From contig NZ_CM002285.1 of assembly GCF_000497445.1 (NCBI RefSeq), positions 8,397,095-8,413,159 on the forward strand: a stretch of 16,065 bases of DNA, given 5' to 3'. This DNA comes from Streptomyces roseochromogenus subsp. oscitans DS 12.976. GTDB lineage: Bacteria > Actinomycetota > Actinomycetes > Streptomycetales > Streptomycetaceae. The notes under the pieces were generated by a model. That model searched no databases. It was not told the origin of the DNA and was given only the letters and a program-made list of their open reading frames with translations. Below, piece after piece: positions 16 to 16,065 of the stretch. Made by a program: the position numbers and the translations under genes. Numbering within the stretch: the stretch's first letter is position 1; every line of letters starts with the position of its first letter.

Positions 16-1446
16 ATGAGCGGGTCACCGAAGTACAGCAGCGTCCGTGTGGGTGCGATGTATGCCCAGCGGGAGGCGGCGGAGCGCCGTCGCCGGGCCG
101 AGGAGCGCCGGGCCAGGGAACGCAGGCGGGCCGCCGAGCGGGCGCGGCTGGCCCAGGAGGCGGCTGCCCGCCGGGAACGCGCGCGTGCCGAGACGGAGCG
201 GCGCCGTGCCGAAGTCGCACGAAAAGAGGCCGAGTTGGCGGCCCGGCGGACGGCCGAGCGCGGCGCCCGGCTGGCCCGTGCGCGGGCGGAGCAGAACCGG
301 GCCGACGAGCGCGGTCTGGAGGAGGTGCGGGAGCTGATCGCCGAGGCCCAGCGGTCCGGGGCGCGGGCCGACGTCGGTTCCCTGGAGAGGCGGTTGGCCG
401 ACCTGCGGGAGCGGGCCGCCCGTGGGGAACAGCTCGGGGACGCGGTGGAGGAACTGCGCGGCCGGGTCGTGAGCCTGCGCTCGACAGCAGGGGGGAACTT
501 TACGGACGACCCCTCCGCCGTCCTGGCCGGTCTGGAGCGCCGGTTCTCCGCCACCGGCACGGACGGCGCCACCCTCGACGCGGACGGCCATCGGCGCTGC
601 ACCGACCTGCTCGACCAGCTGCGCGCGGCCGCCGCCCCGGGCCGGCAGGTCCGTTTCGAAGCCCTGCTCGGCACGGTCGAACACGCCCTGGCCCGGCATG
701 CTGCGAAGGTCGCCGAGGCCCGAGAAGCCGCTGAGCGGACGGCACTCGCGGAACAGGAGCGGGAGGCGGCCGAGGCGGCGGAGCGCGAGCGCGCCGAGGC
801 AGCGCAGGCGGCCCTGGAGCTGGCCCTCGTGGAGGCCGCCGAGCGGCTCGACGTCGTACGGCCGGCGGCCGAGGGCGTGGTGGACACCGCCGCCGATCTC
901 GGCGACCCCGGGCTCGCCGACGAGATCGGGGACCACCTGTGCGCCGTCACCCAGGCGCTGACCGGGCGCTCGGCGGCCGAGGCACTGAAGGCGGTCGCCG
1001 ATCTGGAAGGGCGGCTCCCCGACGCCGAACGCCGGCTGGACGAGCTGGAGCTGGCCTACCAGCGACGCCGGGACCTGGTGGAGGCGCTCCGGGACGCCAT
1101 GACCGGCGAGGGGTTCGCCTTCGAGGGCGGTGAGGACCAGGGCGGCAGCTTCCGGCTGCACTTCACGCGGCCGACCGGGGCGACGTACGAGACCACGGTC
1201 ACCACCGAGGACGACGGCACGCCCGTCCTCGTCTACCGCGTGGCGGGCGAGCCGGACGTGACGCTGTACGCCCCGCAGGACGAGGCGGTGTGCGACACCA
1301 CCGAGGCGCTGCTGGAGCGGGTGCACGGGGCGCTGGGCGGCGACGACGGCTTCGTCCCGGGTGAGCTCGGCTGGGACGGCAAACCGCCGGGCCGGCGCGC
1401 CAAGCCGCTGCCGCACGAGACCTCCTGGAGGTGGACGACCCCGTGA
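16..1446 (+). CDS. Coiled-coil protein of unknown function, first gene of the chaperone/GTPase operon
   Basis: I do not recognise a named family. The ATG at 16 is preceded by GGAGCGGAGGGG at 1-12, a strong ribosome binding site, so the 476-residue start is well supported. Residues about 16-110 are almost only Arg, Glu and Ala (ERRRRAEERRARERRR type) and predict a long charged helix or coiled coil. Residues about 110-160 and 235-355 contain further helical, heptad-like stretches (AAERERAEAAQAALELALVEAAERL class). From about 355 the composition changes to a compact mixed alpha/beta region with short strands (SFRLHFTRPTGATYETTVTT, TPVLVYRVAGEPDVTLYA), suggesting a folded domain at about 355-450. 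There is no signal peptide or membrane segment, so it is probably cytosolic. It overlaps the AAA+ gene by four bases (GTGA), implying translational coupling. By position it may be a scaffold or adaptor for the downstream ATPase, but that is inference. The gene upstream of the window is unknown. Confidence 0.85.
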   Translation: MSGSPKYSSVRVGAMYAQREAAERRRRAEERRARERRRAAERARLAQEAAARRERARAETERRRAEVARKEAELAARRTAERGARLARARAEQNRADERGLEEVRELIAEAQRSGARADVGSLERRLADLRERAARGEQLGDAVEELRGRVVSLRSTAGGNFTDDPSAVLAGLERRFSATGTDGATLDADGHRRCTDLLDQLRAAAAPGRQVRFEALLGTVEHALARHAAKVAEAREAAERTALAEQEREAAEAAERERAEAAQAALELALVEAAERLDVVRPAAEGVVDTAADLGDPGLADEIGDHLCAVTQALTGRSAAEALKAVADLEGRLPDAERRLDELELAYQRRRDLVEALRDAMTGEGFAFEGGEDQGGSFRLHFTRPTGATYETTVTTEDDGTPVLVYRVAGEPDVTLYAPQDEAVCDTTEALLERVHGALGGDDGFVPGELGWDGKPPGRRAKPLPHETSWRWTTP

Positions 1447-3440
1447 GCACGGTCGGCTTCGCCAAGGGCGAGGACGGTACGGGACCCGTCACCGCCGACG
1501 GCATGATGCCCCTGTGGGCGGTCTCGCTCGGCTGGGAGCTGCGGCGCGGCCGTCAGGTGATCATCAACGGGCAGATCCGGGACCGCTGGTGGTTCGAGGA
1601 CCGGCCCGCCTCCTTCCGGGAGGTGGTCGCCGGGGTGCTGGAAGTGCGCGGCGCCGACGTGGTGGGCTGGTGGGACCCGGTGGCCGGGCTCACCTTCCCG
1701 CTGCCGGGCCACGCGGAGCGCTTCGCCCGGCTGGAGACGGACCGGCCCCGCACAGCCACCGGCAGCGGTGACCGGGGCACACCCGCGGACGACCGGCGTC
1801 AGGATGACCGGCGTCAGGACGACCGACAGCGAGCCAACCCGCGCAGCCGGCGCGGCATCGAACGCGAGCGGGACCGGTCGAGCCTGCTCTCCCCTCGCTC
1901 AGCCGGCCCCCCGCGCGCCTTCGACGACGTGGTCGCCACCGTGCACCGACTCGCCGCCTCCCCCGACGCGGCCACGGCCTTCGTCTTCCAGGACATCGAC
2001 CACCACCTCCCGCCCGGCCAGCCGGAATCGAGCGCCGGCTACCTCCGGCTGCGCGCCGCGATGACGGACGCCGTGACCCCCCGCGAGGCCCTGGCGGGCC
2101 ACCGCCCGCACGCCCGCAACGCCGTCCTGTGCGCGGTGGGCGACGTCGGCCGGCTGCCCGGCTGGTTCCACCTGGAGGACCCCCGGATCGCCACGCTGCA
2201 CGTCGGCCCACCGGACCCGAGCGAGCGCCGCCTGTGGCTGACCTGGCTGCGCGGCGACTTCAACGGCGCCCCGGACGCCACGCGCCACGACATCGAGGCC
2301 CTGGTCGGTGCCACCGACGGCATGTCCGGCTGGGACATCGACGCGCTCGCCCGGACCTCGTGGCTGCGCGACGTGCCGCTGCGGAAACCGGACAAGCTCC
2401 TGGAACTGCACCGGCTCAACGTGAGCGTCGACCCGTGGACCCAGCTGGACCGGGAGACCGTCGCCGGCGCGGCCGACGTACTGGGCGCCCGGGTGGTAGG
2501 CCAGTCCAAGGCCGTAGACGCGGTGGCCGCCGCGCTCCAGGCGGCCTTCGTGGGCGTCGACTTCGGCGGCTCCGGCACCGCCCGCCCCCGGGGCGCGTTC
2601 TTCTTCGTCGGCCCGACCGGCGTCGGCAAGACCGAACTCGCCAAGGCCGTCGCCGAGTTGATGTTCGGCGACCAGAGTGCGTACGCCCGCTTCGACATGA
2701 GCGAGTACCAGCAGGAACACGCGGCCGAGCGGCTCGCGGGCGCACCGCCTGGCTACATCGGCCACGAGCAGGGCGGCGAGCTGACCCGACGGGTCCAGGA
2801 ACGGCCGTTCAGCGTCCTCCTCTTCGACGAGATCGAAAAGGCGCACCCGCGGGTACTGGACAAGTTCCTCCAGATCCTGGAGGACGGCCGCCTCACCGAC
2901 GGCCGCGGCCAGACCGCGTACTTCTCCCAGTGCCTGATCATCTTCACCTCCAACACGGGCGCGGAGGCGGTCCAGAGTCTGCTGTCCGGAGGCGACTCCG
3001 AAGGCGGCGAAGAAGTGCCGTACTCCGCCCTGGAGGCACACTTCACCCGGGCCGTGGAGGAGAAATTCCGGGCGATCGGCCGGCCGGAGATCTACGGTCG
3101 GCTCAAGCCGGGCGTGGTCGTCTTCGACATGCTGCGCCGCGAGCACATCGTGAAGATCGCCGACCGGCTGCTGGGCCAGCTCACCGAGTCCGTCCGCGAA
3201 CGCCACCAGGTCGAGCTGGTCCCCGACACGGACACCCTGCACCCCTGGATCACCGAGCGGATGAGCGACCCGGAGCACCAGGCATACGGCGGCCGCCAGA
3301 TCCGCAACGAACTGGAACGGCTGCGGGAGGCCGTGGTCGCCCGGTTCCTGGCCCAGCGCCCGACCCCGGGCAGCCGGATCCGGCTCGGCATCGACGCCGA
3401 CGGCACGCCGTGGGCCAGGACCGAGGAAGGGAACGGCTGA
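1443..3440 (+). CDS. ClpB/ClpC-like AAA+ ATPase with degenerate first AAA domain
   Basis: The GTG at 1443 is chosen because GGAGGTGG at 1425-1432 is correctly spaced and gives a GTGA overlap with the previous stop; the in-frame GTG at 1431 lies inside that site. The protein has 665 residues. Residues about 25-95 form a small domain (INGQIRDRWW, WWDPVAGLTF) resembling the N-terminus of other uncharacterised bacterial AAA ATPases. A polar, Arg/Asp-rich linker follows at about 100-155. Residues about 160-330 look like the second half of an AAA domain with a Walker B-like FVFQDID but no Walker A. Residues about 345-660 are a full Clp/Hsp100 second ATPase domain: Walker A GPTGVGKT (390-397), pore loop GYIG (437-440), Walker B LLFDEIEKAH (D462/E463), sensor-1 TSNTG, arginine finger R553 in EIYGRLKP, and sensor-2 GGRQI (R618). 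It is therefore likely an active unfoldase or remodeller using only the second ring. There is no ClpP-binding IGF/IGL-type loop that I can see. It lies three bases before an Hsp70-like gene, recalling the ClpB-Hsp70 partnership. Confidence 0.9.
   Translation: MSTVGFAKGEDGTGPVTADGMMPLWAVSLGWELRRGRQVIINGQIRDRWWFEDRPASFREVVAGVLEVRGADVVGWWDPVAGLTFPLPGHAERFARLETDRPRTATGSGDRGTPADDRRQDDRRQDDRQRANPRSRRGIERERDRSSLLSPRSAGPPRAFDDVVATVHRLAASPDAATAFVFQDIDHHLPPGQPESSAGYLRLRAAMTDAVTPREALAGHRPHARNAVLCAVGDVGRLPGWFHLEDPRIATLHVGPPDPSERRLWLTWLRGDFNGAPDATRHDIEALVGATDGMSGWDIDALARTSWLRDVPLRKPDKLLELHRLNVSVDPWTQLDRETVAGAADVLGARVVGQSKAVDAVAAALQAAFVGVDFGGSGTARPRGAFFFVGPTGVGKTELAKAVAELMFGDQSAYARFDMSEYQQEHAAERLAGAPPGYIGHEQGGELTRRVQERPFSVLLFDEIEKAHPRVLDKFLQILEDGRLTDGRGQTAYFSQCLIIFTSNTGAEAVQSLLSGGDSEGGEEVPYSALEAHFTRAVEEKFRAIGRPEIYGRLKPGVVVFDMLRREHIVKIADRLLGQLTESVRERHQVELVPDTDTLHPWITERMSDPEHQAYGGRQIRNELERLREAVVARFLAQRPTPGSRIRLGIDADGTPWARTEEGNG
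1788..1829 (+). repeat. 15-bp in-frame tandem repeat in AAA+ gene linker
   Basis: Two near-identical 15-base units (GACGACCGGCGTCAG at 1788-1802; GATGACCGGCGTCAG at 1803-1817) are followed by a shorter third copy (GACGACCGACAG, 1818-1829). The units are in frame and encode DDRRQ-DDRRQ-DDRQ in the polar linker between the N-terminal domain and the degenerate AAA region. This is probably replication slippage in a disordered, length-tolerant segment, so copy number may vary between strains. Confidence 0.8.
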
Positions 3441-3443
3441 CAC

Positions 3444-5015
3444 ATGCTCGGTATCGCCATCGGCCACCGCATCGCCCGCATCGGCCGCATCGACGCGGAA
3501 GGCCGCCCGGCCGTGACGGTGACGGACCTGGCCGGAACGGAGACAGCCACCGACCGCGACGCCGCACTGACCGCGCTCCTCGCCGAAGCCACAGGTGAGG
3601 AGGCAATGCTCGGCCTGCCCGCCTCCGCCGGCCGCGATGCCGAGGCCCGCCTCCGCCGCGCCGCCGAGGACGCCGGCCTCCGCGTCAACAGAGTCGTCCC
3701 GGAACCGGTCGCGGTGGCCCTGCACTACGGCGCGATCGACGAGGGCGTACACCGTACGGTCCTGGTGGTCGACCAGGCCGCGGCCACGGTGGACCTGACG
3801 GTCCTCGCCATCACCCCGGACCTGACGGTACGAGTCGTCACCACGCGCACCGAACAACTGGCCGACGACCACGCCCGCACGGCGATAGCCCGGGAACTGA
3901 CCCAGGCGACCCTTGACTCCGTACTCCTCTCCGGCGACCTGTACACAACGCCCGCCCACCGCACGGACATCGAGAACCTCGCCGAGGCTCAGGGCCTGAC
4001 GGTCCGCTGCACAACCCCCGAACTGGCCGTCGTACACGGTCTCCTGCTCCTGGAAGACTTCGGGCTCCTCCGCATCACCTTCGGCCCGGCACCGACGGTG
4101 ACCCACTTTCCCCCTCCGCTGGAGGACCCGGAACCGCACGCCTGGTCCACTCCCGTGGAGGACCCAGAACCAGAAAGCGCCCCGAAGGGGCGCGGGGCCG
4201 AGACATATGCGGCTCCGCCGCGTGGGCGCGAGGAACCCCCACCGGCCCGCAGCGAACCCCCCACCGCCACCACCCCACCCCTCCCCACCCCCGAACCAGA
4301 ACCCGAAACACAACCCCAACCCCAACCCCAGACACACCCGCAACCGGCCCACACCCTCCACGCCGTCCCCGTAACCCAACTCCAAGCCATCCGCCGGGAC
4401 GACCACCTCCTCGTCCTCTGGGCCTGGCCCGACTCCGCCCTCACCGCCCGCGTCCGCTGGCGCTGCGAAGACGCGGCAGCGACCCGCCCCCGCGAGGGCG
4501 ACATCCGCTGGCAGCGCCGGGTCTACGAACACGACGGCGGCCTGGACCTCCCCGTCGGCCGAGGCGCGGTCACGCTCACCGTCGAGGCCCTGGTCCCCGA
4601 CGCCACCGTCGACACGGAGGGCGCCGCCTCCCTGCGCATCCCGGCCGAACCCCCCATCGTCGAGTACGAACCGTCCCTGCGCCGCCGCCTCACCGGCGCC
4701 CGCGTCGCGACCGTCACCTTCACCGCCCGGACCGGCTGCGACCTCCCCGCCCTCCGGATCGTCCACGGCCTCGGCCGCTACCGCCCCACCAGCACGGCCG
4801 AGGGCACCGTCCTCCACGAGGTCCCCGCCCAGCGCCTCCCCGCCGGCACCCCCCTCACCGTGGAGTTCCCCTTCCCCAGCACCCGAGGCTCCTCCTGGCT
4901 CGTCTGCTTCCCGGCGGACGGCCCGGACTCCGGCCCCGGCTCCGACCCAGACTCCTGCCAAGACCGCGACATCGACATCCGCCCCACGGCGCTGCACCGG
5001 CTGCGAGTGACCTGA
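3444..5015 (+). CDS. Shrunken Hsp70-like protein with proline-rich linker and beta-rich C-terminus
   Basis: The ATG at 3444 follows GAAGGGAA (3426-3433) and lies three bases after the AAA+ stop; the product has 523 residues. Residues 1-210 align by eye with a minimal Hsp70/actin-like ATPase core: GIAIGHR at 3-9 sits where Hsp70 has GIDLGTT, LPASAGRDAEARLRRAAEDAGL matches the VPAYF...R.AT..AG.iAGL helix, EPVAVALHYG (87-96) matches EPTAAALAYG, VVDQAAATVDLTVL (108-121) replaces the DLGGGTFD phosphate-2 loop, and VLLSGDLYTTP (160-170) replaces VLLVGGSTRMP. The acidic residue of phosphate-1 and the glycines of phosphate-2 are lost, and most of subdomain IIB and the whole peptide-binding domain are absent, so ATPase activity is doubtful. 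Residues about 212-315 are a low-complexity Pro/Glu/Gln/Thr linker. Residues about 325-515 look like one or two beta-sandwich (fibronectin-III-like) domains, which is inference. Context (ClpB-like ATPase before, GTPase after) suggests an adaptor or pseudo-chaperone role. The stop abuts the next start. Confidence 0.85.
   Translation: MLGIAIGHRIARIGRIDAEGRPAVTVTDLAGTETATDRDAALTALLAEATGEEAMLGLPASAGRDAEARLRRAAEDAGLRVNRVVPEPVAVALHYGAIDEGVHRTVLVVDQAAATVDLTVLAITPDLTVRVVTTRTEQLADDHARTAIARELTQATLDSVLLSGDLYTTPAHRTDIENLAEAQGLTVRCTTPELAVVHGLLLLEDFGLLRITFGPAPTVTHFPPPLEDPEPHAWSTPVEDPEPESAPKGRGAETYAAPPRGREEPPPARSEPPTATTPPLPTPEPEPETQPQPQPQTHPQPAHTLHAVPVTQLQAIRRDDHLLVLWAWPDSALTARVRWRCEDAAATRPREGDIRWQRRVYEHDGGLDLPVGRGAVTLTVEALVPDATVDTEGAASLRIPAEPPIVEYEPSLRRRLTGARVATVTFTARTGCDLPALRIVHGLGRYRPTSTAEGTVLHEVPAQRLPAGTPLTVEFPFPSTRGSSWLVCFPADGPDSGPGSDPDSCQDRDIDIRPTALHRLRVT
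4172..4252 (+). repeat. Streptomyces intergenic-type palindromic repeat lying inside a coding region
   Basis: This segment matches, from memory, a repeat seen in very many copies in Streptomyces intergenic DNA: an AGCGCCCC-GAA-GGGGCGCGGGGC block, a short variable spacer, GCGGCTCCGCCGCGTGGGCGCG, then a tail ending in CCCGCAG. Two hairpins are visible: GCGCCCC (4177-4183) pairs with GGGGCGC (4187-4193) around a GAA loop, and GCGGC (4209-4213) pairs with GCCGC (4217-4221) around TCC. Here the element is read in frame and encodes about 27 residues (roughly 243-270) of the proline-rich linker of the Hsp70-like protein. The copy differs from the form I remember in the second half (AGGAACCCCC where CAGCCAC is common). 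A genome-wide search would confirm membership. Confidence 0.75.
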
Positions 5016-6203
5016 ATGGCCAGACGACTCACCTGCCCCTACTGCTACGAGACCTTCGCCCCGCGTGAGATCCGGTTCCGCTGCAACAGCCGGCTCAGCC
5101 GCACCCGCAAGCAGTGCGAGCGCCGCCGCGACCCGGTCCTCGACGAACGCTTCGGCCGGCGCCCCAGCCACGACGTGGGCCCGGACTTCGCCGCCGACGG
5201 CCGCAAGTCGACGGCGGTGTGCCCGGACTGTGACGGCGAGACGACGTACCGCATCTGCCCGGTCTGCCACGTCGAACTGCCGGTGCAGTTCGGCATGGTG
5301 GAGAACCGGCTGATCGCGATGGTCGGCGCGAGATCCTCCGGCAAGACGATCTACATGACCGTGCTGCTGCACGAGATGCGCAACCAGGTCGGCGAGGCCT
5401 ACGGCGCCTCGCTGATGGGCCTGGACGACACCACCATGCGCCGCTACAGCTCGGAGTACGAGGACCGGCTCTACCGCGACCGGCAGATGTTCCCGCCCAC
5501 ACAGACCGCGACGACCAACGCCAATCGGGTGGAACCACTGGTGTTCAGGTTCGGGCTGCGCCGCAAGGGGCTGTTCGGGGAGCGGCCGCAGCACAGCGTG
5601 CTGTCGTTCTTCGACACGGCGGGCGAGGACTTCAACAGCAGGGAGAGCGTGGAGCTCAACACCCGCTACCTGACCAACGCGGACGGCATCATCCTGTTGC
5701 TGGACCCGCTGCAGATGCCGGGCGCCCGGGACAACGCGGCACCCGGCACGGCGCTGCCCGGCCTGGACGGCATCGACCCGCCGATCAACGTACTGAGCCG
5801 GGTGAGCGGCATGCTGCTGGCCGCGAAGGGCGGCAAGGCAGCGAAGGCCGACACCCCGATCGCGGTGGTCTTCTCCAAGATGGACGCCTTCTGGCATCTG
5901 ATGGAGAACGGCAGCCCGCTGCGGTCACACGCACCCGCGCGCGGCCGTTTCGACGTCGGCGACAGCCTCAGCGTCCACGAGGAGGTCCGTCAGCTGCTCA
6001 AGGAATGGGACGGCGTGCCCATCGACCAGTCCCTGGAGAACACCTTCGCCCGCTACCGCTACTTCGGTGTCTCCGCGCTGGGCCGCAGCGCCACACCGGA
6101 GGCCCGTGTCGCCGACACCGGCATCCAGCCCTACCGGGTCGCGGATCCGCTGCTGTGGCTGCTGAGCGAGTTCGGTGCGGTGCCGAAGGCGGGCCGCGGA
6201 TGA
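5016..6203 (+). CDS. Zinc-ribbon TRAFAC-type GTPase (double-GTPase system, first partner)
   Basis: The ATG at 5016 directly follows the previous stop with no gap, so translation is probably coupled; the upstream ribosome site is weak. The product has 395 residues. It opens with zinc-binding cysteines: CPYC near residue 7, further Cys at about 27-39, then CPDC and CPVC (about 70-90). The GTPase core follows: G1/P-loop GARSSGKT (104-111), G3 DTAGED (200-205), G4-like SKMD (287-290) and G5-like VSALG (about 352-356). The interval between G3 and G4 is long and contains an LLLDPLQMPG segment typical of this family. No membrane segment is seen. Presence beside a GAP1-type gene and a second GTPase fits the double-GTPase (DO-GTPase) class of predicted conflict-system NTPases; naming of the exact subfamily is from memory. 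The TGA stop overlaps the ATG of the GAP1 gene (ATGA at 6200-6203). It is expected to bind GTP and act as a switch; its partner and trigger are unknown. Confidence 0.88.
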   Translation: MARRLTCPYCYETFAPREIRFRCNSRLSRTRKQCERRRDPVLDERFGRRPSHDVGPDFAADGRKSTAVCPDCDGETTYRICPVCHVELPVQFGMVENRLIAMVGARSSGKTIYMTVLLHEMRNQVGEAYGASLMGLDDTTMRRYSSEYEDRLYRDRQMFPPTQTATTNANRVEPLVFRFGLRRKGLFGERPQHSVLSFFDTAGEDFNSRESVELNTRYLTNADGIILLLDPLQMPGARDNAAPGTALPGLDGIDPPINVLSRVSGMLLAAKGGKAAKADTPIAVVFSKMDAFWHLMENGSPLRSHAPARGRFDVGDSLSVHEEVRQLLKEWDGVPIDQSLENTFARYRYFGVSALGRSATPEARVADTGIQPYRVADPLLWLLSEFGAVPKAGRG

Positions 6204-8671: not shown

Positions 8672-8679
8672 GCCATTCG

Positions 8680-10224
8680 ATGGACGACATCCTGCTCTTC
8701 GTCATCATCCCCGCGGTCTACCTGGCCCTGCTCCTGGTCTACCTGGTCTTCGCCCCGGCGATCGCGGTCCTGCGCGGGGCCGCCCTGGTCAGTGAACTGC
8801 TTTGGCGTTACGGCCAGTTGCTCAACGGCGTGTTGCGCCTGCGCACCCCCGAGTTCGTGACCATCCCGCCGTACCGCCCCGCCGACGAACTGGCCCACCG
8901 CAACTACTTCTTCGGCCCCGCCACCCGCGACCTGCGCCAACTCCTCACTCAGGGCTGGCGTTTGTATGTCCGCACGGTCAACGACGCCTACCGCCGGGTG
9001 ACCGCCCGCCAGTTCACCGCCCCCTCCATGCACCGGTCCGTCTCTGTCCCGTACGGCCTGACCCTCTACCTGGGCCTCGGCGTCGGCGCCGCCGCCGCGG
9101 TACCGGTGCTGGGCCTGCTCCTCGGCGTGCAGGCGCTCGGCGTGGCTCTGCTGACGGCCGGTGCCCGGCTCACCGCGCTCACCCTGCGGGCCGCCGACCG
9201 CACGGTGATGATCCTGCGCGGGCTGCCCCGGGGCATGCTGTGCCCGAGCTGCTTCGAACGCGTCCCCTATCCGGCATACGACTGCCCCCGCGCGACCTGC
9301 CGACGCCGGCACGCCGACATCCGCCCGGGCACCTTCGGCCTCTTCCGGCGCCGGTGCGCCTGCGGCGAGCGGATACCGACCCTGCTGATGCTGATGAGCA
9401 GGGACGCCCGGCTGAGCGGCTTCTGCGTGCACGAACACTGCGGCAAGCCGATGAACCCGGACGCCGGGCACATGCCCGAGCTGATCCTGCCGCTGATCGG
9501 CGGCCGGGCCGCGGGCAAGACGCAGCTGATGGCGGCGATGGTGAAGTCACTGGAGAACACGGCGGAGAACGGCGGGCCGGCGATCCGGCTCGCGGACCCC
9601 GAGTCGCGTGCCAACCAGCGGGTGCTGAACGAGGTCCTGGAGATCCAGGGCCACACCCGTCCCACCCAGAAGACCTTGCCCCGAGCCCATTCGTTCGTGC
9701 TCGGCAGCGGCCGCGCCGAGCGGCTGGTGCATGTCTTCGACACAGCCGGCGAGCGGTTCGTCAACCGGGAGGAGACCGACGCGCTGCGCTATGCCCGGGA
9801 GGCCCGCACCTTTGTGTTCGTCCTCGACCCGATGGCCGTCGACGCGTTCTGGACCCGCCTCGACCCGGCGGGCCCGAAGGTCGACCGCACGCTGGGCTCG
9901 ACGGTCGACCCGGAGGACGTGTTCGCGCGCTCGCTCCAGACCGTACGCACGATGGGCACCCGCCTCGACAAGGCCCGGCTCGCCGTCGCCGTCACCAAGA
10001 GGGACCTTCTGGCAGGCCGGCCGGGCCTGCTGCCCGACCGCCCGGACGACAGCGATACAGCTCGGGAGTGGCTGTGTGAGCGGCTGGGGTTGCGGAATCT
10101 GGTGAAGACGATGGATTTGGAGTTCGGTGAGGTGCGGTTTTTCTGCACGGCGGCGGTAGCGGATCAGGAGGGGCGGGTGGACCCGAGTATTGCGGCTTTC
10201 GTTGAGTGGTGTCTGCGCGAGTGA
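8680..10224 (+). CDS. Membrane-anchored zinc-ribbon GTPase (double-GTPase system, second partner)
   Basis: The ATG at 8680 is preceded by AAGAGGGG (8661-8668) and lies eight bases after the GAP1 stop, giving 514 residues. Residues about 3-28 are a hydrophobic N-terminal anchor (LLFVIIPAVYLALLLVYLVF). A second hydrophobic stretch occurs at about 127-165 (LYLGLGVGAAAAVPVLGLLL), so the protein probably has a membrane hairpin with the catalytic part in the cytosol. A zinc ribbon follows: CPSC at 188-191, CPRATC, and CAC, with a later HEHC. The GTPase core has G1 GGRAAGKT (274-281), G3 DTAGER (354-359), LDPMA, G4-like TKRD (439-442) and a G5-like FFCTAAVAD near the C-terminus. Compared with the upstream GTPase the core is related, but the G4 differs (TKRD against SKMD) and membrane segments are added. 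This is typical of the second (DO-GTPase2-like) partner; subfamily naming is from memory. It ends the six-gene operon. Confidence 0.88.
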   Translation: MDDILLFVIIPAVYLALLLVYLVFAPAIAVLRGAALVSELLWRYGQLLNGVLRLRTPEFVTIPPYRPADELAHRNYFFGPATRDLRQLLTQGWRLYVRTVNDAYRRVTARQFTAPSMHRSVSVPYGLTLYLGLGVGAAAAVPVLGLLLGVQALGVALLTAGARLTALTLRAADRTVMILRGLPRGMLCPSCFERVPYPAYDCPRATCRRRHADIRPGTFGLFRRRCACGERIPTLLMLMSRDARLSGFCVHEHCGKPMNPDAGHMPELILPLIGGRAAGKTQLMAAMVKSLENTAENGGPAIRLADPESRANQRVLNEVLEIQGHTRPTQKTLPRAHSFVLGSGRAERLVHVFDTAGERFVNREETDALRYAREARTFVFVLDPMAVDAFWTRLDPAGPKVDRTLGSTVDPEDVFARSLQTVRTMGTRLDKARLAVAVTKRDLLAGRPGLLPDRPDDSDTAREWLCERLGLRNLVKTMDLEFGEVRFFCTAAVADQEGRVDPSIAAFVEWCLRE

Positions 10225-10351
10225 GCGTTCCCCCCGGCCACCTCGTCGCGCATGTGGATGAGGTGTGGAGATCGCCCGAGCCGACGGATGAAAACCGATG
10301 AAAGTCCTGAGGGCCGCGTGACGTGGGGCTCTGAATGTGGCTTTACTGGGA

Positions 10352-10401
10352 GTTACCCATGGACCATCGCTCGGACCAGGCGTGGCGGGGATCAGGGTAA
10401 C
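10352..10401. promoter_or_regulatory. Inverted repeat in the gap before the lysin gene
   Basis: The 190-base gap 10225-10414 holds no gene. It contains GTTACCC at 10352-10358 and its exact complement GGGTAAC at 10395-10401, 36 bases apart and ending where the lysin ribosome site (CGGGAGGA, 10401-10408) starts. It could be an operator or an RNA stem that hides the ribosome site, but a 7-base match is short. A GATGAAA direct repeat also occurs around 10287-10302. I see no convincing -35/-10 pair and no terminator after the GTPase gene, so read-through from the operon is possible. Confidence 0.25.
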
Positions 10402-10414
10402 GGGAGGACTGTCG

Positions 10415-12181
10415 ATGGCTTACGCCAAGGGGTACGACGTGTCCGACTTCCAGTCGGGCATACCGGGGGACGCAGGCTTCGCTTTCATCAAGGCCACCGA
10501 GGGCGCGCACACCGAACAGAGCGGCTACAAGCAGAAGTTGGCCGAGGCTCGACGCCGCAAACTGGTGGTCGGGCACTACCACTTCCTGCACGCGGAGAAC
10601 GCGGTCGCGGACGAGGTGGACCACTTCTGCCGGGTCGTCGGCCATGTGCCGCAGGGCGAGTTGCTGGCACTGGACTTCGAACCGTACGGCCAGAACGTGA
10701 GTGACGCGCACGCGACCCAGGTGAAGAACCAGTGGCTGGCGGCGGTGAAGCGGCACTACCCGGACAACCTGGTCGGCCTCTACGTCGACCGCGACTACTG
10801 GTTCCGGACCGATGACAACGCGGGTGACTTCCTCTGGATAGCGGACTACGTCACACCGGGCGCGCCCAGGATCCGGGCTCCGTGGAAGTTCCATCAGTAC
10901 ACCGACCGGCCGATGGACGTCGATGTGTACCACGGCACGATGCGGGAGCTGAGGGAGTGGGCGGGCGCCGCGGCGGCGAAGCCGTCCCCTGCGCCACGGC
11001 CGCACCCTCAGCCCACACCGCACCCGCGGCCCGCGCCGCATCCGGGGCCCCAACAGCCATGGAAAGGCCTGCAGTTGGTTTCGCGCGCCGAATGGGGCGC
11101 CCGCCCCTGGCGGGAGCCGAACGGGTCGATCCCGTACCACGAGCCGCGCAAGGGTGTGAAGATCCACTACCTGGGCACGCCGTACACGTTCGGCCCGCAC
11201 TCCACCTGCGCGGCCTATGTGCGCCGCATCCAGGACGGGCACATGGACTTCGACAAGTGGTCCGACATCGGCTACAGCTTCGTGGTCTGCGAGCACGGTG
11301 TGGTCTACGAAGGCCGCGGGCTGCAGCGGCGCAACAGCGCCAACGGGAACGTGCCGCTCAACGAGGCACACTACGCGGTCTGCGCATTGGTCGGCGCTTC
11401 CGGATCCACCACGCCCACCTGGGACCAGCTCAACGGCCTTCGGGACGCGATCGAGTACTGCCAGAAGCATGGACCGGCCGGTCCGGAGATCAAGGGCCAT
11501 CGGGACGGGTACGCCACCGACTGTCCTGGGCCGGTGCTCTACGCGTGGGTGCGCGAAGGGGCGCCGCGGCCGTCGGGCTCGGGCACCAGCCCCAAGCCTG
11601 AGCCCAAGCCACAGCCCAAGCCTCAGCCCGAGCAGCCGGTACGCCGCCAAGTCACCCTCGGTGGGCTGCGATACGGCTTCGGCGCCAACGGCATGCACGT
11701 CACCGCAGTCGGCCGGGCGCTGGTCGCCGCCGGGTTCGGCAAGCACTACCACGACGGCCCTGGCCCCGAGTGGACGGACGCGGACACCCTCAACTACGCC
11801 GACTACCAACGCAGTCAGGGCTTCTCCGGCGCTGACGCCGACGGCGTGCCCGGTGAGCGTTCGCTGCGCTCCCTGTTGCACGGGGCGATACCGCTCGCCA
11901 CGGTCGCGCACACCAAGGTGGTCGACTCGGCACGGCACGACCCGGGCGCTCCGCAGGGCGCGACCAGCAACCCGGACGACGTCCTCACGATCGAACTAGC
12001 CCTGGCCGACGAGGGGCTGCTCGATCGCAGGTGGGTCGACGGCTCCTTCGGCACCAAGACCGTTGCCGCCTACTCACAGCTCCAGAAGCGCTACGGCTAC
12101 ACCGGGATGATGGCCGACGGCATCCCCGGCAAGGACTCGCTGACCAGGCTCGGCCATGCGCACGGCTTCGCCGTCGAGTGA
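10415..12181 (+). CDS. Bifunctional peptidoglycan hydrolase (GH25 muramidase + PGRP amidase), endolysin-like
   Basis: The ATG at 10415 is chosen because CGGGAGGA (10401-10408) is ideally placed; the in-frame GTG at 10337 has no good site. The product has 588 residues. Residues 5-200 are a glycoside hydrolase 25 (lysozyme) domain: GYDVSDFQ with D8/D11, FIKATEG, GHYHFL and the catalytic-type LDFEP (D87, E89). A Pro/His-rich linker spans about 190-215. Residues about 220-385 are a PGRP/amidase-2 domain (LVSRAEWGARPW) with zinc ligands H251 (KIHYLG), H362 (GHRD) and C370 (DCPG), so an N-acetylmuramoyl-L-alanine amidase. A KPQPKPQPE linker follows, then two C-terminal peptidoglycan-binding-like repeats (about 410-490 with GADADGVPG; about 520-585 with MMADGIPGKDSL). 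There is no signal peptide, typical of endolysins needing a holin or cell breakage for access to the wall. A holin-like gene follows 30 bases later. It probably cuts both glycan and peptide links, either for particle release or self-lysis. Confidence 0.92.
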   Translation: MAYAKGYDVSDFQSGIPGDAGFAFIKATEGAHTEQSGYKQKLAEARRRKLVVGHYHFLHAENAVADEVDHFCRVVGHVPQGELLALDFEPYGQNVSDAHATQVKNQWLAAVKRHYPDNLVGLYVDRDYWFRTDDNAGDFLWIADYVTPGAPRIRAPWKFHQYTDRPMDVDVYHGTMRELREWAGAAAAKPSPAPRPHPQPTPHPRPAPHPGPQQPWKGLQLVSRAEWGARPWREPNGSIPYHEPRKGVKIHYLGTPYTFGPHSTCAAYVRRIQDGHMDFDKWSDIGYSFVVCEHGVVYEGRGLQRRNSANGNVPLNEAHYAVCALVGASGSTTPTWDQLNGLRDAIEYCQKHGPAGPEIKGHRDGYATDCPGPVLYAWVREGAPRPSGSGTSPKPEPKPQPKPQPEQPVRRQVTLGGLRYGFGANGMHVTAVGRALVAAGFGKHYHDGPGPEWTDADTLNYADYQRSQGFSGADADGVPGERSLRSLLHGAIPLATVAHTKVVDSARHDPGAPQGATSNPDDVLTIELALADEGLLDRRWVDGSFGTKTVAAYSQLQKRYGYTGMMADGIPGKDSLTRLGHAHGFAVE

Positions 12182-12211
12182 CCTTCCGCCGCAACGGACT
12201 GAGGAACCGTC

Positions 12212-12505
12212 ATGTATCAGATAGCTATTTCCCTTTGGCGTACCTTCGTGCCCTACCTGGTGGCCTTCGTCGTGCTGCAGGCCGCGCGGCTGGGCATCCA
12301 TCTGAACAACGCCACCGTGAACTCCGCTCTCACCACCGGCTTCGGCACGGTCTACTACGCGGTCTTCCGTGTGCTGGAGCACCGCTACGGCGCCCGCTGG
12401 GGCTGGTTCCTGGGAGCGGCCAAGCCGCCGGCCTACGCGCTCGCGGGAACTCCCGCCACCGGCACTCACGCGATCGACTACACCAGGCTTCCCGAGGGCG
12501 GCTGA
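12212..12505 (+). CDS. Small holin-like membrane protein
   Basis: A 97-residue product with the ATG at 12212 preceded by CTGAGGAA (12198-12205). Residues about 8-30 (FVPYLVAFVVLQAARLGIHL) form a transmembrane helix. Residues about 38-56 (LTTGFGTVYYAVFRVLEHRY) form a second, more amphipathic one, followed by a Gly/Pro/Ala-rich soluble tail (GWFLGAAKPPAYAL). Size, topology and position right after an endolysin resemble small holin-like proteins encoded next to lysin genes in actinobacteriophages and phage-like loci. Expected role: oligomerise in the cytoplasmic membrane and let the leaderless hydrolase reach the wall. Sequence identity to a named holin family cannot be judged here; a general small membrane protein is the alternative. 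Confidence 0.75.
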   Translation: MYQIAISLWRTFVPYLVAFVVLQAARLGIHLNNATVNSALTTGFGTVYYAVFRVLEHRYGARWGWFLGAAKPPAYALAGTPATGTHAIDYTRLPEGG

Positions 12506-12591
12506 CATCAGCTCAAGTCCCCTATAAACGATGGACAGTTGTGAAGGCGGTTGGGGTGAAGCGTGCAGATCTCCGTCTCCGGCCGGGAATG

Positions 12592-12624
12592 ACCAGTACT
12601 GACCGGATGCGGTCCTTGACTGGT
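12592..12624. promoter_or_regulatory. Two-part stem-loop or operator in the CIS leader
   Basis: Outer arms ACCAGT (12592-12597) and ACTGGT (12619-12624) enclose inner arms GACCG (12601-12605) and CGGTC (12610-12614) around a GATG loop. Both pairs are exact. The right outer arm overlaps a TTGACT hexamer (12616-12621) that could be a -35 box, so a repressor bound here would block it. It may equally be an RNA structure. Confidence 0.4.
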
Positions 12625-12645
12625 ACGTAACCGCACCGTGAGACT
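12616..12645 (+). promoter_or_regulatory. Candidate promoter for the CIS structural genes (weak)
   Basis: TTGACT (12616-12621) is a good -35 match for the housekeeping sigma factor; 18 bases later GAGACT (12640-12645) is a poor -10 that keeps only A at position 2 and T at position 6. It would give a leader of about 240 bases before the sheath start. A start-site map would decide. Confidence 0.2.
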
Positions 12646-12744
12646 CATCCTGCGTTCAGGCACCAGGGACTTCATGTGTAACCAGCGCAACACCTCGCGG
12701 TACAGGTGCCGCAGGGGCTGCGACGGGGGAATCAGGTAACGGCC

Positions 12745-12765
12745 GCACCGGGCCTCTCCCGGTGC
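12745..12765. other. Perfect 8-bp GC-rich hairpin in the CIS leader
   Basis: GCACCGGG (12745-12752) pairs exactly with CCCGGTGC (12758-12765) around the loop CCTCT. No T-run follows, so it is not a classical intrinsic terminator. It may be a leader structure, attenuator or processing site. Confidence 0.5.
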
Positions 12766-12792
12766 TCGCAAGTCGTGACTCCGCACGCATTC

Positions 12793-12822
12793 GACGGCGA
12801 CGACAGCGCGCTGCGCGCCGTC
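12793..12822. other. Second leader inverted repeat
   Basis: GACGGCG (12793-12799) pairs exactly with CGCCGTC (12816-12822), enclosing the perfect palindrome CAGCGCGCTG (12804-12813). It lies about 65 bases before the sheath start. GC-rich DNA makes such repeats easier by chance, but together with the two upstream stems it suggests a structured leader. Confidence 0.4.
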
Positions 12823-12878
12823 GGCCGGTTCGCGTGCGTCTTCCTCCTTCTTCGTGTCCCCGGGTGCGACAAGGGAAT

Positions 12879-12883
12879 GGAGG
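12879..12883 (+). promoter_or_regulatory. Ribosome binding site deciding the TTG start of the sheath gene
   Basis: GGAGG at 12879-12883 (inside GGAGGGGG) sits five bases before TTG at 12889. The alternative ATG at 12877 overlaps this site itself and would have only a poor site upstream, so TTG is the better start. Confidence 0.7.
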
Positions 12884-12888
12884 GGGAA

Positions 12889-14736
12889 TTGACGACGACA
12901 CCGACCTATCCCGGGGTCTATATCGAGGAGCTGCCCAGCAGCGTCCGCACGATCGGCACCGTGACGACCTCGGTCACCGCCTTTGTCGGCCGCACCCGGC
13001 GGGGACCCGTCGACCGGCCTGTGACCATCACCAGCTTCGCCGACTACGAGCGGCAGTTCGGTGGCCTGGACCCGCAGAGCCCGGTCAGCTACTCCGTGCA
13101 GCAGTTCTTCGTCAACGGCGGCACCGTCGCCGTCATCGTCCGCGCGGTGGCGGCCGGCACGGGCAAGTCGGCGACGGTGACGCTGCACTCGACCGAGAGC
13201 AGCACCGAAACCCCGGTCCTGGAGGTCACCGCCGAGCAGCCAGGTGCCTGGGGTGCGGGCCTGCGGCTCTCCGTGGACTACGACACCACCGCTCCGGAGA
13301 GCACCTTCAACCTCCGGGTCTTCGACATCACCGGCGGTGTCAGCGAGTTCTTCTCCGGGCTGTCGCCCAAGGCCGGCGACCCCAACTTCGCCGAGACCGC
13401 GGTCAACGGCGGTTCCGACGCCATCAGGGTGAAGGTCCTCGCCGAGCAGCGCCCGGACCCGGTGGGCACCGTGTCCAAGCCCTTCGCGGCCACCCTGCCC
13501 GACCTCACCCGGCAGATCGAGGTCAAGATCGGGACGGCCCAGCGGACCTTCCGTATCTACGACGCCGAGCAGGACGGCAAGGCCCCGGTCACCGTCACCG
13601 ACCTCGCCCTGCTGCTGGAGCGCAAGCTGCGCGCGCTGCCGGACGCACCGGGCCGGCGGGTCTTCGCCGGGACGACCGTCACCGCCTTCGGCAACCGCCT
13701 GCAGATCGTGGCCGGTTCCAACGATCCCGCCGACACGGTGCGCTTCGTCGGCGAGGCCGCCAACAACCTCGGCCTGGAGTCAGGCGTCAACCCGCCGGTC
13801 TTCGCGCTCGCGGGCGGCGAGGACGGGGGAGCACCCGGCCCGACCGACCTGATCGGCAGTGAGCCGGAGAAGAGCGGCATCCAGGCGCTGCGTGACGTCC
13901 AGGACGTCAACCTGCTGGTTCTGCCCGAGATTTCCGCCTACCCGAACATCGAGGACCAGCTCACCGTACTTTCGGCGGCGCAGGCGCTCGCCGAGGAGAA
14001 GCGGCTCTTCGTCATCGCCGATGCTCCGCAGACCTGGTCGAGCGTGGACGCGGCGCGGGCCGGTCTGTCCGCGTTCGACCCGGTGCGCAGTAACCATTCG
14101 GCGCTGTATTTCCCGCAGCTGGAACTCATCGACCCGCTCACCGGCCGGCTGCGCTCTTTCCCGCCGTCCGGCACCATCGCCGGGGTCTACGCCCGGACCG
14201 ACGCCGCCCGAGGGGTGTGGAAGGCGCCGGCCGGGACGGAGACCCCGCTCTCCGGGGTACGGGCGCTGGGCGTCAAGCTCACCGACAAGGAGAACGGGCT
14301 GCTCAACCCGCTGGGGCTGAACTGCGCGCGGAGCTTCCCGGTGGTCGGCCCGGTGGTGTGGGGCGCTCGGACGCTGGCGGGAGCGGACGCGCTGCAGTCC
14401 GAGTGGAAGTACATACCGGTGCGGCGGCTGGCGCTGTTCATCGAGGAGAGCCTCTACCGCGGGCTGCGGTGGGTGGTCTTCGAGCCGAACGACGAGCGGC
14501 TGTGGTCGCAGATCCGGCTCAATGTCGAGGCCTTCCTGCAGAAGCTCTTCCAGCAGGGGGCGTTCCAGGGGACGACTCCGCGCGCGTCGTACTTCGTCAA
14601 GTGCGACAGCTCGACCACCACGCAGGCGGACATCGACCGCGGAGTGGTCAACGTGCTGGTCGGCTTCGCTCCCGTGAAGCCCGCGGAGTTCGTGGTCGTC
14701 CAGATCGAGCAGATGGCCGGGCAGTTCGAGGCCTAG
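12889..14736 (+). CDS. Contractile injection system tail sheath protein
   Basis: From the TTG at 12889 the product has 615 residues and begins MTTTPTYPGVYIEELPSS, the typical start of phage/CIS sheaths (Y-P-G-V-Y-I-E-E). The N-terminal third continues with TAFVGRTRRGPVDRPVTITS and FVNGGTVAVIVRA, hallmarks of the sheath domain that contacts its neighbours. Residues about 95-325 are an inserted beta-rich region (surface domains). From about 330 (GIQALRDVQDVNLLVLPEIS) to the end lies the conserved sheath core with GVWKAPAG, NPLGLNCARSFPVVGPVVWG, EWKYIPVRRLALFIEESLY and the C-terminal strand FVVVQIEQMAG that locks subunits together. The protein polymerises around the tube and contracts to drive it outward. 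It is longer than the simplest CIS sheaths and near T4 gp18 in size because of the inserted domain. The tube gene follows after 25 bases. The in-frame extension up to 12706 is rejected. Confidence 0.95.
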   Translation: MTTTPTYPGVYIEELPSSVRTIGTVTTSVTAFVGRTRRGPVDRPVTITSFADYERQFGGLDPQSPVSYSVQQFFVNGGTVAVIVRAVAAGTGKSATVTLHSTESSTETPVLEVTAEQPGAWGAGLRLSVDYDTTAPESTFNLRVFDITGGVSEFFSGLSPKAGDPNFAETAVNGGSDAIRVKVLAEQRPDPVGTVSKPFAATLPDLTRQIEVKIGTAQRTFRIYDAEQDGKAPVTVTDLALLLERKLRALPDAPGRRVFAGTTVTAFGNRLQIVAGSNDPADTVRFVGEAANNLGLESGVNPPVFALAGGEDGGAPGPTDLIGSEPEKSGIQALRDVQDVNLLVLPEISAYPNIEDQLTVLSAAQALAEEKRLFVIADAPQTWSSVDAARAGLSAFDPVRSNHSALYFPQLELIDPLTGRLRSFPPSGTIAGVYARTDAARGVWKAPAGTETPLSGVRALGVKLTDKENGLLNPLGLNCARSFPVVGPVVWGARTLAGADALQSEWKYIPVRRLALFIEESLYRGLRWVVFEPNDERLWSQIRLNVEAFLQKLFQQGAFQGTTPRASYFVKCDSSTTTQADIDRGVVNVLVGFAPVKPAEFVVVQIEQMAGQFEA

Positions 14737-14761
14737 GTTCAGGGGTTAGGAAGCAGCTTTC

Positions 14762-15286
14762 ATGGCCGAGTTCACCATCAACCCGCAACGATTCGACCCC
14801 TACAAGAACTTCAAGTTCCTGGTGGTCTGGGACGGTCGGGTGGTCGCGGGCATCAGCAAGATCAGCCCGCTGAAGCGGACCACCGAGGTGGTCAAGCACC
14901 GCAACGGCGGCGATCCCAGCTCGCCGCGGAAGTCCCCGGGCCGCACCGAGTTCGAGGCGATCACCCTGGAGCGCGGGGTCACCCACGACCCGGAGTTCGA
15001 CCGCTGGGCCAACAAGGTCTGGCAGGTCGGCGCCGGTCCGGGCGCCGAGGTCTCGCTCGCCGACTTCCGCAAGGACCTGGTCATCCAGGTGCTCAACGAG
15101 GCCGGCCAGGTGGCCGTCGCGCACAAGGTGTTCCGGGCCTGGCCGAGCGAGTACCAGGTGCTCGGCGAGATGGACGCCAACGCCAACGCGGTCGCCATCC
15201 AGAGCCTCAAGCTGGAGTGCGAAGGCTGGGACCGGGACTGGTCGGTCCCGGAACCGCAGGAGCCGTCGTACACCAATCCCGCGTAG
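14762..15286 (+). CDS. Contractile injection system inner tube protein (T4 gp19-like)
   Basis: A 174-residue protein from the ATG at 14762, preceded by AGGAAG (14748-14753). It begins MAEFTINPQRFDPYKNFKF and contains VAGISKISPLKRTTEVV, HRNGGDPSSPRKSPGRT, EAITLERGVTHDPEFDRWAN and NANAVAIQSLKLECEGWDRD, the conserved run of the phage/CIS tube family. The full single-domain beta-barrel length is present, plus a short Pro-rich tail. Hexamers stack into the rigid tube inside the sheath and load cargo in some systems. It is the second gene of the structural operon. The stop is six bases before the GTG of the next gene, so the two are probably co-translated. Confidence 0.95.
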   Translation: MAEFTINPQRFDPYKNFKFLVVWDGRVVAGISKISPLKRTTEVVKHRNGGDPSSPRKSPGRTEFEAITLERGVTHDPEFDRWANKVWQVGAGPGAEVSLADFRKDLVIQVLNEAGQVAVAHKVFRAWPSEYQVLGEMDANANAVAIQSLKLECEGWDRDWSVPEPQEPSYTNPA

Positions 15287-15292
15287 CCGACA

Positions 15293-16051
15293 GTGAGTCC
15301 GGAAGGTACAGCCGGCGCATCGGTCGGTGCGGCCGCCCTGCTGGCCGTCTGGGAGTCGGGGCTGGCCGCGGGGTACGCCAAGCGCGCCCTGCTGCTGCAC
15401 TCCGCCGCCCGGCCGGCGGCGGGCACCGAGGAGCTGCTGTCCGTCCCGGTAGGGCGTCGTGACGCCGATCTGTTCGCGCTGCGGCGTGAACTCTTCGGAG
15501 AGCGGCTGGAGGTGCGCGTGACGTGCCGTCAGTGCGGCGGGGAGATGGAGTTCACGCTCGGCGTGCAGGACGTGATCGGCGCCGGGGCCGCCGAGGTCGC
15601 GGACGGACCGCTGGCCGTCGAGGCCGACGGCTGGACGGTGCGGTTCCGGCTGCCGACGGCCGGGGATCTGGCCGCGGTCGAGGCGTCACCTGTTGTGGAG
15701 GCCGGTGCCGAACTCGTCGCCCGCTGCGTGCTGCACGCCGAACGTTCCGGAACCGAGGTGGCGGCCGACGCACTGCCCGAGCACGTGCGGCAGCGCGTCG
15801 CCCAGGCCGCGGCCGAGGCCGACCCGGGAGCCGACGTCCGGCTCAACCTGACCTGCCCGGACTGCGGTCACGCGGCCACCGCCGAACTGGACATCGGCTC
15901 GTACCTGTGGGCCGAACTGGACGCCTGGGCGCGGGGCACGCTGCAGGATGTCCATCTGCTCGCCGGCCACTACGGATGGAGCGAGTCCGAGGTCCTGGCG
16001 CTCAGCCCGCTGCGGCGCCGCTACTACCTGGAGCTGTGTGCGGATGCCTGA
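15293..16051 (+). CDS. T4 gp51-like baseplate hub assembly protein with two CxxC pairs
   Basis: A 252-residue protein from the GTG at 15293. No good ribosome site is visible, so translation probably re-initiates after the tube stop six bases upstream. It starts with a segment typical of the family (AALLAVWESGLAAGYAKRAL, DADLFALRRELFGERLEV), then CRQC (78-81), a central region including VRFRLPTAGDLAAVEA, and a second CPDC (188-191). The two CxxC pairs probably make one zinc ribbon. The end (WAELDAWARGTLQDVHLLAG, YGWSESEVLALSPLRRRYYL) matches the C-terminal signature of the T4-type baseplate hub assembly chaperone family found beside tube genes in CIS loci. Role: assembly of the baseplate hub or a structural part of the baseplate, which cannot be told from sequence. 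Its end overlaps the next gene by eight bases. Confidence 0.85.
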   Translation: MSPEGTAGASVGAAALLAVWESGLAAGYAKRALLLHSAARPAAGTEELLSVPVGRRDADLFALRRELFGERLEVRVTCRQCGGEMEFTLGVQDVIGAGAAEVADGPLAVEADGWTVRFRLPTAGDLAAVEASPVVEAGAELVARCVLHAERSGTEVAADALPEHVRQRVAQAAAEADPGADVRLNLTCPDCGHAATAELDIGSYLWAELDAWARGTLQDVHLLAGHYGWSESEVLALSPLRRRYYLELCADA

Positions 16052-16065
16052 CCACTTCGACCGCC
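16044..16065 (+). CDS. Start of next CIS operon gene (partial, cut by window edge)
   Basis: The ATG at 16044 overlaps the end of the baseplate-hub gene in another frame and reads MPDHFDR before the window ends. GGAG at 16030-16033 is ten bases upstream, an acceptable ribosome site. Only seven codons are visible, so no product can be named; by position it is likely another CIS structural or assembly gene. Confidence 0.5.

Follow-up and report, generated by a model that had tools for sequence, protein, structure and literature searches.

Probable neighbours rather than one machine: a GAP1/double-GTPase operon beside a lysin-bearing contractile injection system in Streptomyces roseochromogenus

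Do the genes of a tightly packed block on one strand encode one machine, or two machines that happen to adjoin? This question is raised by a stretch of 16,065 nucleotides in the 9.78 Mb genome of Streptomyces roseochromogenus subsp. oscitans DS 12.976 (G000:C1:8397095-8413159; the whole stretch is called the window below), in which a GAP1/double-GTPase operon is followed by an endolysin gene, a holin-like gene and the first genes of a contractile injection system (CIS). An earlier note had described eleven collinear genes on one strand, separated into groups by gaps of 190 and 383 bases, and our check of the open reading frames (ORFs) fully agrees: all eleven genes lie on the plus strand at the positions claimed, with 190 bases between the stop of the second GTPase gene (10224) and the lysin start (10415) and 383 bases between the end of the holin-like gene (12505) and the TTG start of the sheath gene (12889). 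Both modules are truncated by the window edges; four more operon genes, for vWA, PP2C, kinase and radical-SAM proteins, are situated on its left, from ~4.6 kb upstream, and the CIS-bearing block extends ~32 kb to the right. The same note proposed a composite machine, in which the operon senses or controls how the CIS is assembled, fired or set free and the lysin serves for exit or killing. While the shared strand and the short first gap favour such an arrangement, we consider it improbable and conclude that, in all likelihood, two separate machines stand side by side, a GAP1/double-GTPase operon and a CIS with its own lysis genes. The distinction matters, as a one-system reading would seek a form of control that relatives do not support.

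The first line of evidence comes from the operon in other genomes. A scan of genome contigs containing GAP1 yielded 36 loci, and the closest GAP1 loci of named genomes were those of Streptomyces. In 19 Streptomyces loci (L005-L023), GAP1 is 54-89% identical to its counterpart in the window, and 13 of the 16 Streptomyces loci with 10 kb of upstream sequence match all ten operon genes in the order vWA, PP2C, kinase, radical SAM, coil, AAA, Hsp70-like, GTPase, GAP1, GTPase; two others (L019, L021) lack only vWA, at the locus edge. Three further copies, with DNA at most 94% identical to any of the 19, emerged from other searches (G044/L047, G800/L145, G773/L153), bringing the total to 22 copies besides that of the window. 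To judge by these comparisons, the first six genes of the window make up the 3' portion of an operon conserved in Streptomyces, which varies on a conflict system already known as a prediction. This identification, already made in the earlier note, is supported both by Pfam domains, with the N2, M and C domains of GAP1 all scoring far above their cut-offs, and by the GAP1-N2 themes described by Kaur et al. (2020, eLife, PMC7159879). In the passages of that paper devoted to them, these systems, whose role in biological conflict is a prediction of its authors, likewise place a GAP1 with N2, M and C domains beside zinc-ribbon and membrane DO-GTPases; here, the DO-GTPase gene directly 5' of GAP1 encodes N-terminal CxxC motifs and the second GTPase has membrane segments. 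The kinase, PP2C and vWA proteins (the last with a match below the Pfam cut-off) correspond to the published third theme and the HSP70-family part to the second. However, the same passages call the second and third themes non-overlapping, whereas the operon studied here joins parts of both and adds Clp-type AAA, coiled-coil-like and radical-SAM proteins that they leave unmentioned. The main text of the paper contains no mention of contractile, phage tail, injection, DENN, longin or TagF.

No match to a sheath, a tube, a lysin or any other CIS gene turned up in the fetched flanks of the 22 other operon copies, which include at least 6 kb of downstream sequence for 21 copies and 1.3 kb for L018. 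Moreover, the operon seems not to need a CIS, since 5 of its 19 genomes have no sheath match anywhere in the assembly (the other 14 have one). Collinearity of operon and CIS is thus peculiar to S. roseochromogenus (G000) among the relatives examined. Broader surveys point the same way. In a family-level sample, 21 of 150 genomes have a GAP1-C match, 93 a sheath and 15 both, and according to the listed coordinates the two lie within 100 kb of each other in G000 only; a sheath is present in 15/21 GAP1 genomes and 78/129 others, a difference that is not significant (p 0.47). In a genus-level sample of 392 genomes, the corresponding counts are 102, 261 and 81, the last comprising 77 genomes plus G000, G024, G056 and G095. 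These GAP1 counts may be low, given that three (genus) or nine (family) candidates were scored per genome; a phylum-level GAP1 survey (4/296) was not used for association, because it scored four candidates per genome and GAP1 is known from further genera. Leaving out G000, GAP1 shares a contig with a sheath at 39 loci of 36 genomes; the distance is 29 kb at five of these loci, which all represent one other site, and 157 kb at the next. We also fetched 96 GAP1 loci from 92 of the 102 genus genomes (G000, G044, G064 and G095 were already at hand; G819, G716, G560, G564, G567, G569 and a second G024 copy were left out). Together with the 36 loci of the first scan, this gave 132 loci, eight of them duplicates, none of which was matched by the sheath and tube profiles; as a control, the sheath profile matched 19 of 27 CIS stretches, eight of the stretches being without a sheath by tblastn. 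On plasmids, GAP1 had no match, and all sheath matches were below 60%. The earlier note had suggested measuring how often GAP1 and sheath lie close together and had named independent placement as the outcome that would speak against a unit, and independent placement is what nearly all genomes of the genus sample display. The surveys and the flanks of the operon copies lead us to reject a composite machine based on conserved linkage as a general feature. Control of a CIS is unlikely to be the general role of the operon, and control of the CIS by GAP1 in this particular strain appears scarcely more than a long shot.

The junction between the two modules can be placed with some precision. The nucleotide homology of the 19 Streptomyces operon copies stops between window positions 10157 and 10254, at the left edge of a CIS block of ~38 kb that reaches from window position ~10225 to ~48611, outside the window, and includes an NB-ARC gene. 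In L009 and L145, the DNA that forms the right flank of this block in G000 (the DUF5997/LysR side) lies within ~50 and ~165 bases, respectively, of the last stop of the operon, whereas in L007 ~1.1 kb of other sequence intervenes. These three loci represent the empty site without the CIS block. Because the block stands directly behind the operon where relatives have an empty site, we infer that the event was, most likely, an insertion into the genome of an ancestral strain. The DUF5997/LysR neighbourhood itself (L004:18100-18717) holds a CIS in four genomes and the GAP1 operon in others, and is possibly a site of frequent exchange.

The second line of evidence concerns the affiliation of the lysis genes. 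A lysin and holin-like pair directly 5' of the sheath gene, as claimed for this locus, recurs in G067, G114 and G137, so that, with G000 included, it is found in 4 of 27 close-type CIS loci (defined by a sheath identity of at least 64% and available upstream sequence, 14 of the 27 having been chosen among genomes with GAP1). In these three genomes, the pair is preceded by other genes, and a profile search of the family sample gave no GAP1-C match in them. The recurrence of the same pair in related CISs indicates that it is part of the CIS. The sheath tree, which has 30 rows, joins G000 first to G067 (99/97) and next to G103 (100/99), both from other genera of the family; the surrounding open clade (87/88) also contains G114, G053, G137 and G023, again from other genera, and G698, G142 and G742 from the same genus. 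That the closest relatives of this CIS reside in other genera, and that lysin-bearing CISs exist without GAP1, adds to the case against a composite machine. Lysin, holin-like gene and CIS thus belong together, with the GAP1 operon forming no part of them by descent. The resemblance of lysin residues 245-605 to Streptomyces phage endolysins could alternatively mean that a prophage left these two genes, lysin and holin-like, as a remnant that lies by chance between the modules, yet the same lysin-holin-sheath order with similar spacing in G067, G114 and G137, behind other upstream genes, makes this extremely unlikely. When CIS loci were clustered by site (with the flank of L061, whose sheath lies at the locus end, left out), G000 was grouped with L051, L063 and L069 because all of these have the lysin and the holin-like gene, and L174 joined through weak matches to L051; otherwise, close-type CISs occupy many different sites. 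Alignments of the stretches 5' of the lysin and of the sheath gave no trustworthy shared promoter.

Several observations weigh against a simple scheme of two independent modules joined by one insertion. In L009, no vWA, PP2C or kinase matches were found despite the presence of upstream sequence. A CIS adjoins DUF5997 in G033, G122 and G139, which are without a GAP1 match, so that loss of either module is conceivable and the empty sites could reflect loss of the CIS from an ancestor that had both; the modules are separable either way. Neither a tRNA nor a flanking repeat was found at the block junctions, and there is no integrase among the annotated genes. Promoter or terminator patterns were likewise not found in positions 9900-13000, which says little in a high-GC genome; the shared strand makes read-through possible, and nothing that we found shows co-regulation. 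In the genus sample, sheaths are commoner in GAP1 genomes than in others (81/102 versus 180/290; Fisher p 0.0014, uncorrected for kinship), an over-representation that counts in favour of a composite machine. Finally, GAP1 and CIS meet a second time: in G518, G685, G714, G791 and G510, GAP1 is immediately followed by the 3' end of a CIS in convergent orientation, with the sheath 29.1-29.5 kb away.

This second contact, independent of the first, is an argument for some link between the modules. Here, the CIS fills the gap between the GAP1 gene and a conserved flank, which follows GAP1 at once in relatives such as G617 (L075), G613 (L097) and G534 (L111); G507 and G483 (L078, L083) retain a piece matching the CIS end, a possible remnant. 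In the GAP1 tree, genomes that have the CIS are mixed with others that do not, and G510 stands far from the other four; this suggests either that the block was inserted repeatedly or that one old insertion was lost many times. The sheath of this CIS falls in a different clade than that of G000, and its neighbouring GAP1 is 27-29% identical to the window GAP1 over the matched part, so that GAP1-CIS contact has arisen at least two times. As support for a composite machine, the second contact is weakened by its convergent orientation and by the finding that, in the fetched stretch, the AAA, Hsp70-like and GTPase proteins of the window operon have no match near this GAP1. Another reading is a shared hotspot, whereby gaps or neighbourhoods behind GAP1 favour the landing or retention of a CIS, similar to a defence island and free of cross-regulation: at two sites, a CIS block now separates GAP1 from the flank that directly follows it in relatives, G507 and G483 may preserve remnants, and one further site was seen, compared with 0.026 contacts within 1.5 kb expected if placement in the 36 genomes were uniform. 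However, the same calculation gives 0.52 pairs at the 30 kb scale, the five genomes count as one site and hence as a single independent event beyond the one selected for study, and close-type CISs lie at many other sites, including beside DUF5997 in genomes without GAP1. The excess of contacts, and with it any non-random neighbourhood effect for GAP1 and CIS, is therefore suggestive at most, and we view a hotspot as a rather unlikely alternative to two unconnected machines. The repeated contact remains a small puzzle. Separately, G783 has an eCIS_core-like stretch (40% over 117 residues; L105:7269 and L168, the same gene) 2-4 kb behind GAP1, with no other CIS genes in the fetched sequence.

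A further argument for a functional link is structural. The predicted model of GAP1-N2/M aligns over 234-254 residues with DENND1B, DENND1A, DENND10 and TagF, and longin-DENN families (DENND1, DENND10, folliculin, C9orf72/SMCR8) together with the type VI secretion system (T6SS) protein TagF fill the first ten rows in Foldseek. The whole GAP1 model gave no Foldseek match at E 0.001 or better, and the Pfam models for DENN, longin and TagF match 0/36 GAP1 N+M sequences at E up to 5. To judge by the modelled fold, GAP1-N2/M may be similar to TagF and to GTPase regulators of the longin-DENN type, which offers a concrete, testable idea of how GAP1 could act on double-GTPases; whether it actually constitutes a bacterial longin-DENN module with the same fold as TagF is, on the fold alone, an evenly balanced call. 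The likeness to a T6SS protein can be read in favour of a composite machine. A far-reaching joint proposal, namely that GAP1-N2/M is a longin-DENN exchange or activating factor for double-GTPases and that GAP1 was captured at least twice as a local controller of CISs that had newly arrived, one of them with lysis genes of its own, strikes us as very improbable. A literature search found no paper joining TagF with DENN or longin among the matches listed, and none linking contractile injection with GAP1 in Streptomyces, or with a conflict system and a GTPase; the passages considered from the Streptomyces CIS literature contain no GTPase link.

The Clp-type AAA protein of the operon could also be invoked for control of the CIS, as the CIS clusters of S. 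coelicolor and S. venezuelae are described, in the passages considered here, as lacking both a typical tape measure and ClpV (PMC10066040). Its score against the TssH/ClpV family is 206 bits, with a cut-off of 885, and that against ClpB (249 bits) is also far under its own cut-off. A role as ClpV-like sheath recycler is not supported, given these scores and the presence of the operon in genomes without a sheath match.

Taking the modules as two separate machines, their likely workings can be sketched. The operon would mediate an NTP-thresholded conflict or stress response, in which GAP1 may regulate both GTPases close to the membrane, with a threshold that may depend on the kinase, PP2C and vWA proteins, while the Clp-type AAA and Hsp70-like proteins may remodel the assembled complex. 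The CIS particles, in turn, would be built in the cytoplasm, take up the eCIS_core/tape-measure-like protein of 2568 aa and, by analogy with Afp, MAC and tailocins, be released by holin-endolysin lysis. In the accounts considered here, lysis cassettes adjoin the injection particles in these systems, which are released by cell lysis; the examples are Gram-negative.

Comparison with described Streptomyces CISs sets this lineage apart. With the cytoplasmic CISs of S. coelicolor, S. venezuelae and S. lividans, as presented in the relevant passages of PMC10066040, PMC10020575, PMC10286715 and PMC13277306, it shares sheath, tube, baseplate and AAA genes. In contrast to these S. lividans/S. coelicolor-type systems, it has lytic genes; the S. 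lividans cluster is reported to be without viral lytic genes (PMC10286715). For the same species, a later paper describes a tape-measure-related effector, Sle1 (PMC13277306). The window sheath matches the sheath C-terminal profile at ~1e-13, compared with values near 1e-20 for most sheaths of the family, among which we assume that of S. coelicolor. One parallel is the Tme CIS of S. davawensis. In the parts of Nagakubo et al. (2024, PMC11126660) considered here, it likewise has, immediately 5' of the spike/baseplate genes, a giant ORF whose product combines an N-terminal DUF4157/eCIS_core domain with predicted membrane segments, and a cell-wall-related gene near the 3' end. It differs in that the window CIS has a lysin and a holin-like gene 5' of the sheath, and the main text of that paper does not mention 'lytic', 'endolysin', 'holin' or 'amidase'. 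A CIS lineage with an endolysin and a holin-like gene in Streptomyces and sister genera, unlike the cytoplasmic Streptomyces CISs described so far, bears on the question of whether such particles leave by lysis.

The features of the window are listed in the table. The gene names proposed earlier are mostly supported by Pfam and other libraries, with weak support for the holin and no family match for the coiled-coil protein, whose coil is read from the sequence alone. Matches over the Pfam cut-offs comprise the Clp-type AAA, the Hsp70 fragment, both DO-GTPase2 domains, GAP1-N2/M/C, GH25 and Amidase_2 and, in the CIS part, the sheath C-terminal domain, the gp19 tube and T4_baseplate; those of PG_binding_1 and Phage_sheath_1 fall below. 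The holin-like gene, otherwise named for size and position, encodes one hydrophobic segment and has a weak PHROG match of unknown function. No Pfam fn3 match was found in the Hsp70-like protein, whose C-terminal half is conserved and would be FnIII-like solely by analogy with the published GAP1-N2 system.

Table. Features of the window (positions in the window, G000:C1:8397095-8413159) and loci of the second GAP1-CIS contact.
Feature	Position or loci	Strand	Basis and remarks
Coiled-coil-like protein of GAP1 operon	16..1446	+	476 aa, no Pfam family; syntenic in relatives
Clp-type (ClpC/ClpB second-ring) AAA+ ATPase, own N-terminal half	1431..3440	+	Pfam; Walker A residue 394, Walker B LLFDE 463
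Hsp70/ASKHA fragment, proline-rich linker, conserved C-terminal half	3444..5015	+	Pfam
DO-GTPase2, N-terminal CxxC motifs, membrane segment not predicted	5016..6203	+	Pfam
GAP1, N2 + M + C domains	6200..8671	+	Pfam; model longin-DENN-like for N+M, helical-repeat for C
Second DO-GTPase2, hydrophobic N-terminal segments; final gene of conserved operon	8680..10224	+	Pfam
Junction, left edge of ~38 kb CIS-bearing block	10225..10414	.	End of nucleotide homology
Endolysin, GH25 + Amidase_2 + peptidoglycan binding	10415..12181	+	Pfam; later part resembles Streptomyces phage endolysins
Holin-like small membrane protein	12212..12505	+	Size, position, one hydrophobic segment
CIS/phage tail sheath, TTG start	12889..14736	+	Pfam
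CIS inner tube, gp19 family	14762..15286	+	Pfam
T4_baseplate-type CIS baseplate protein	15293..16051	+	Pfam; CIS continues past window
Second-contact loci	L073, L076, L077, L081, L109 with L169-L173		

To the right of the window, the CIS continues with genes for Pvc16_N, AAA, the 2568-aa eCIS_core ORF, CIS_tube, Phage_tail_X-like, Phage_base_V and PAAR-like proteins (the PAAR and Phage_tail_X matches being below the cut-offs), and with Baseplate_J, DUF6519, Amidase_2 and NB-ARC genes. The set expected of a CIS was thus found: sheath, tube, spike/baseplate, PAAR-like tip, AAA and eCIS_core protein. The giant ORF has an N-terminal DUF4157, predicted membrane segments and adjoining baseplate genes, and the 3' end of the block encodes an NB-ARC/TPR protein (L004:13324-15747). 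In eight genomes (G102, G661, G698, G472, G808, G489, G626, G787), two sheath matches lie ~1.8-3.3 kb apart on one contig, which points to CIS or tail clusters with two sheath genes. On the operon side, the radical-SAM/4Fe-4S single-cluster protein (CPLRCQGC; L002:18232-18903) is kept in the GAP1 operon of relatives. Left of the operon lie a gene for a CHAT-domain protein of 1122 aa (L002:8730-12098) and then one for a RES-domain protein, which a stretch with an N-run separates from the vWA gene.

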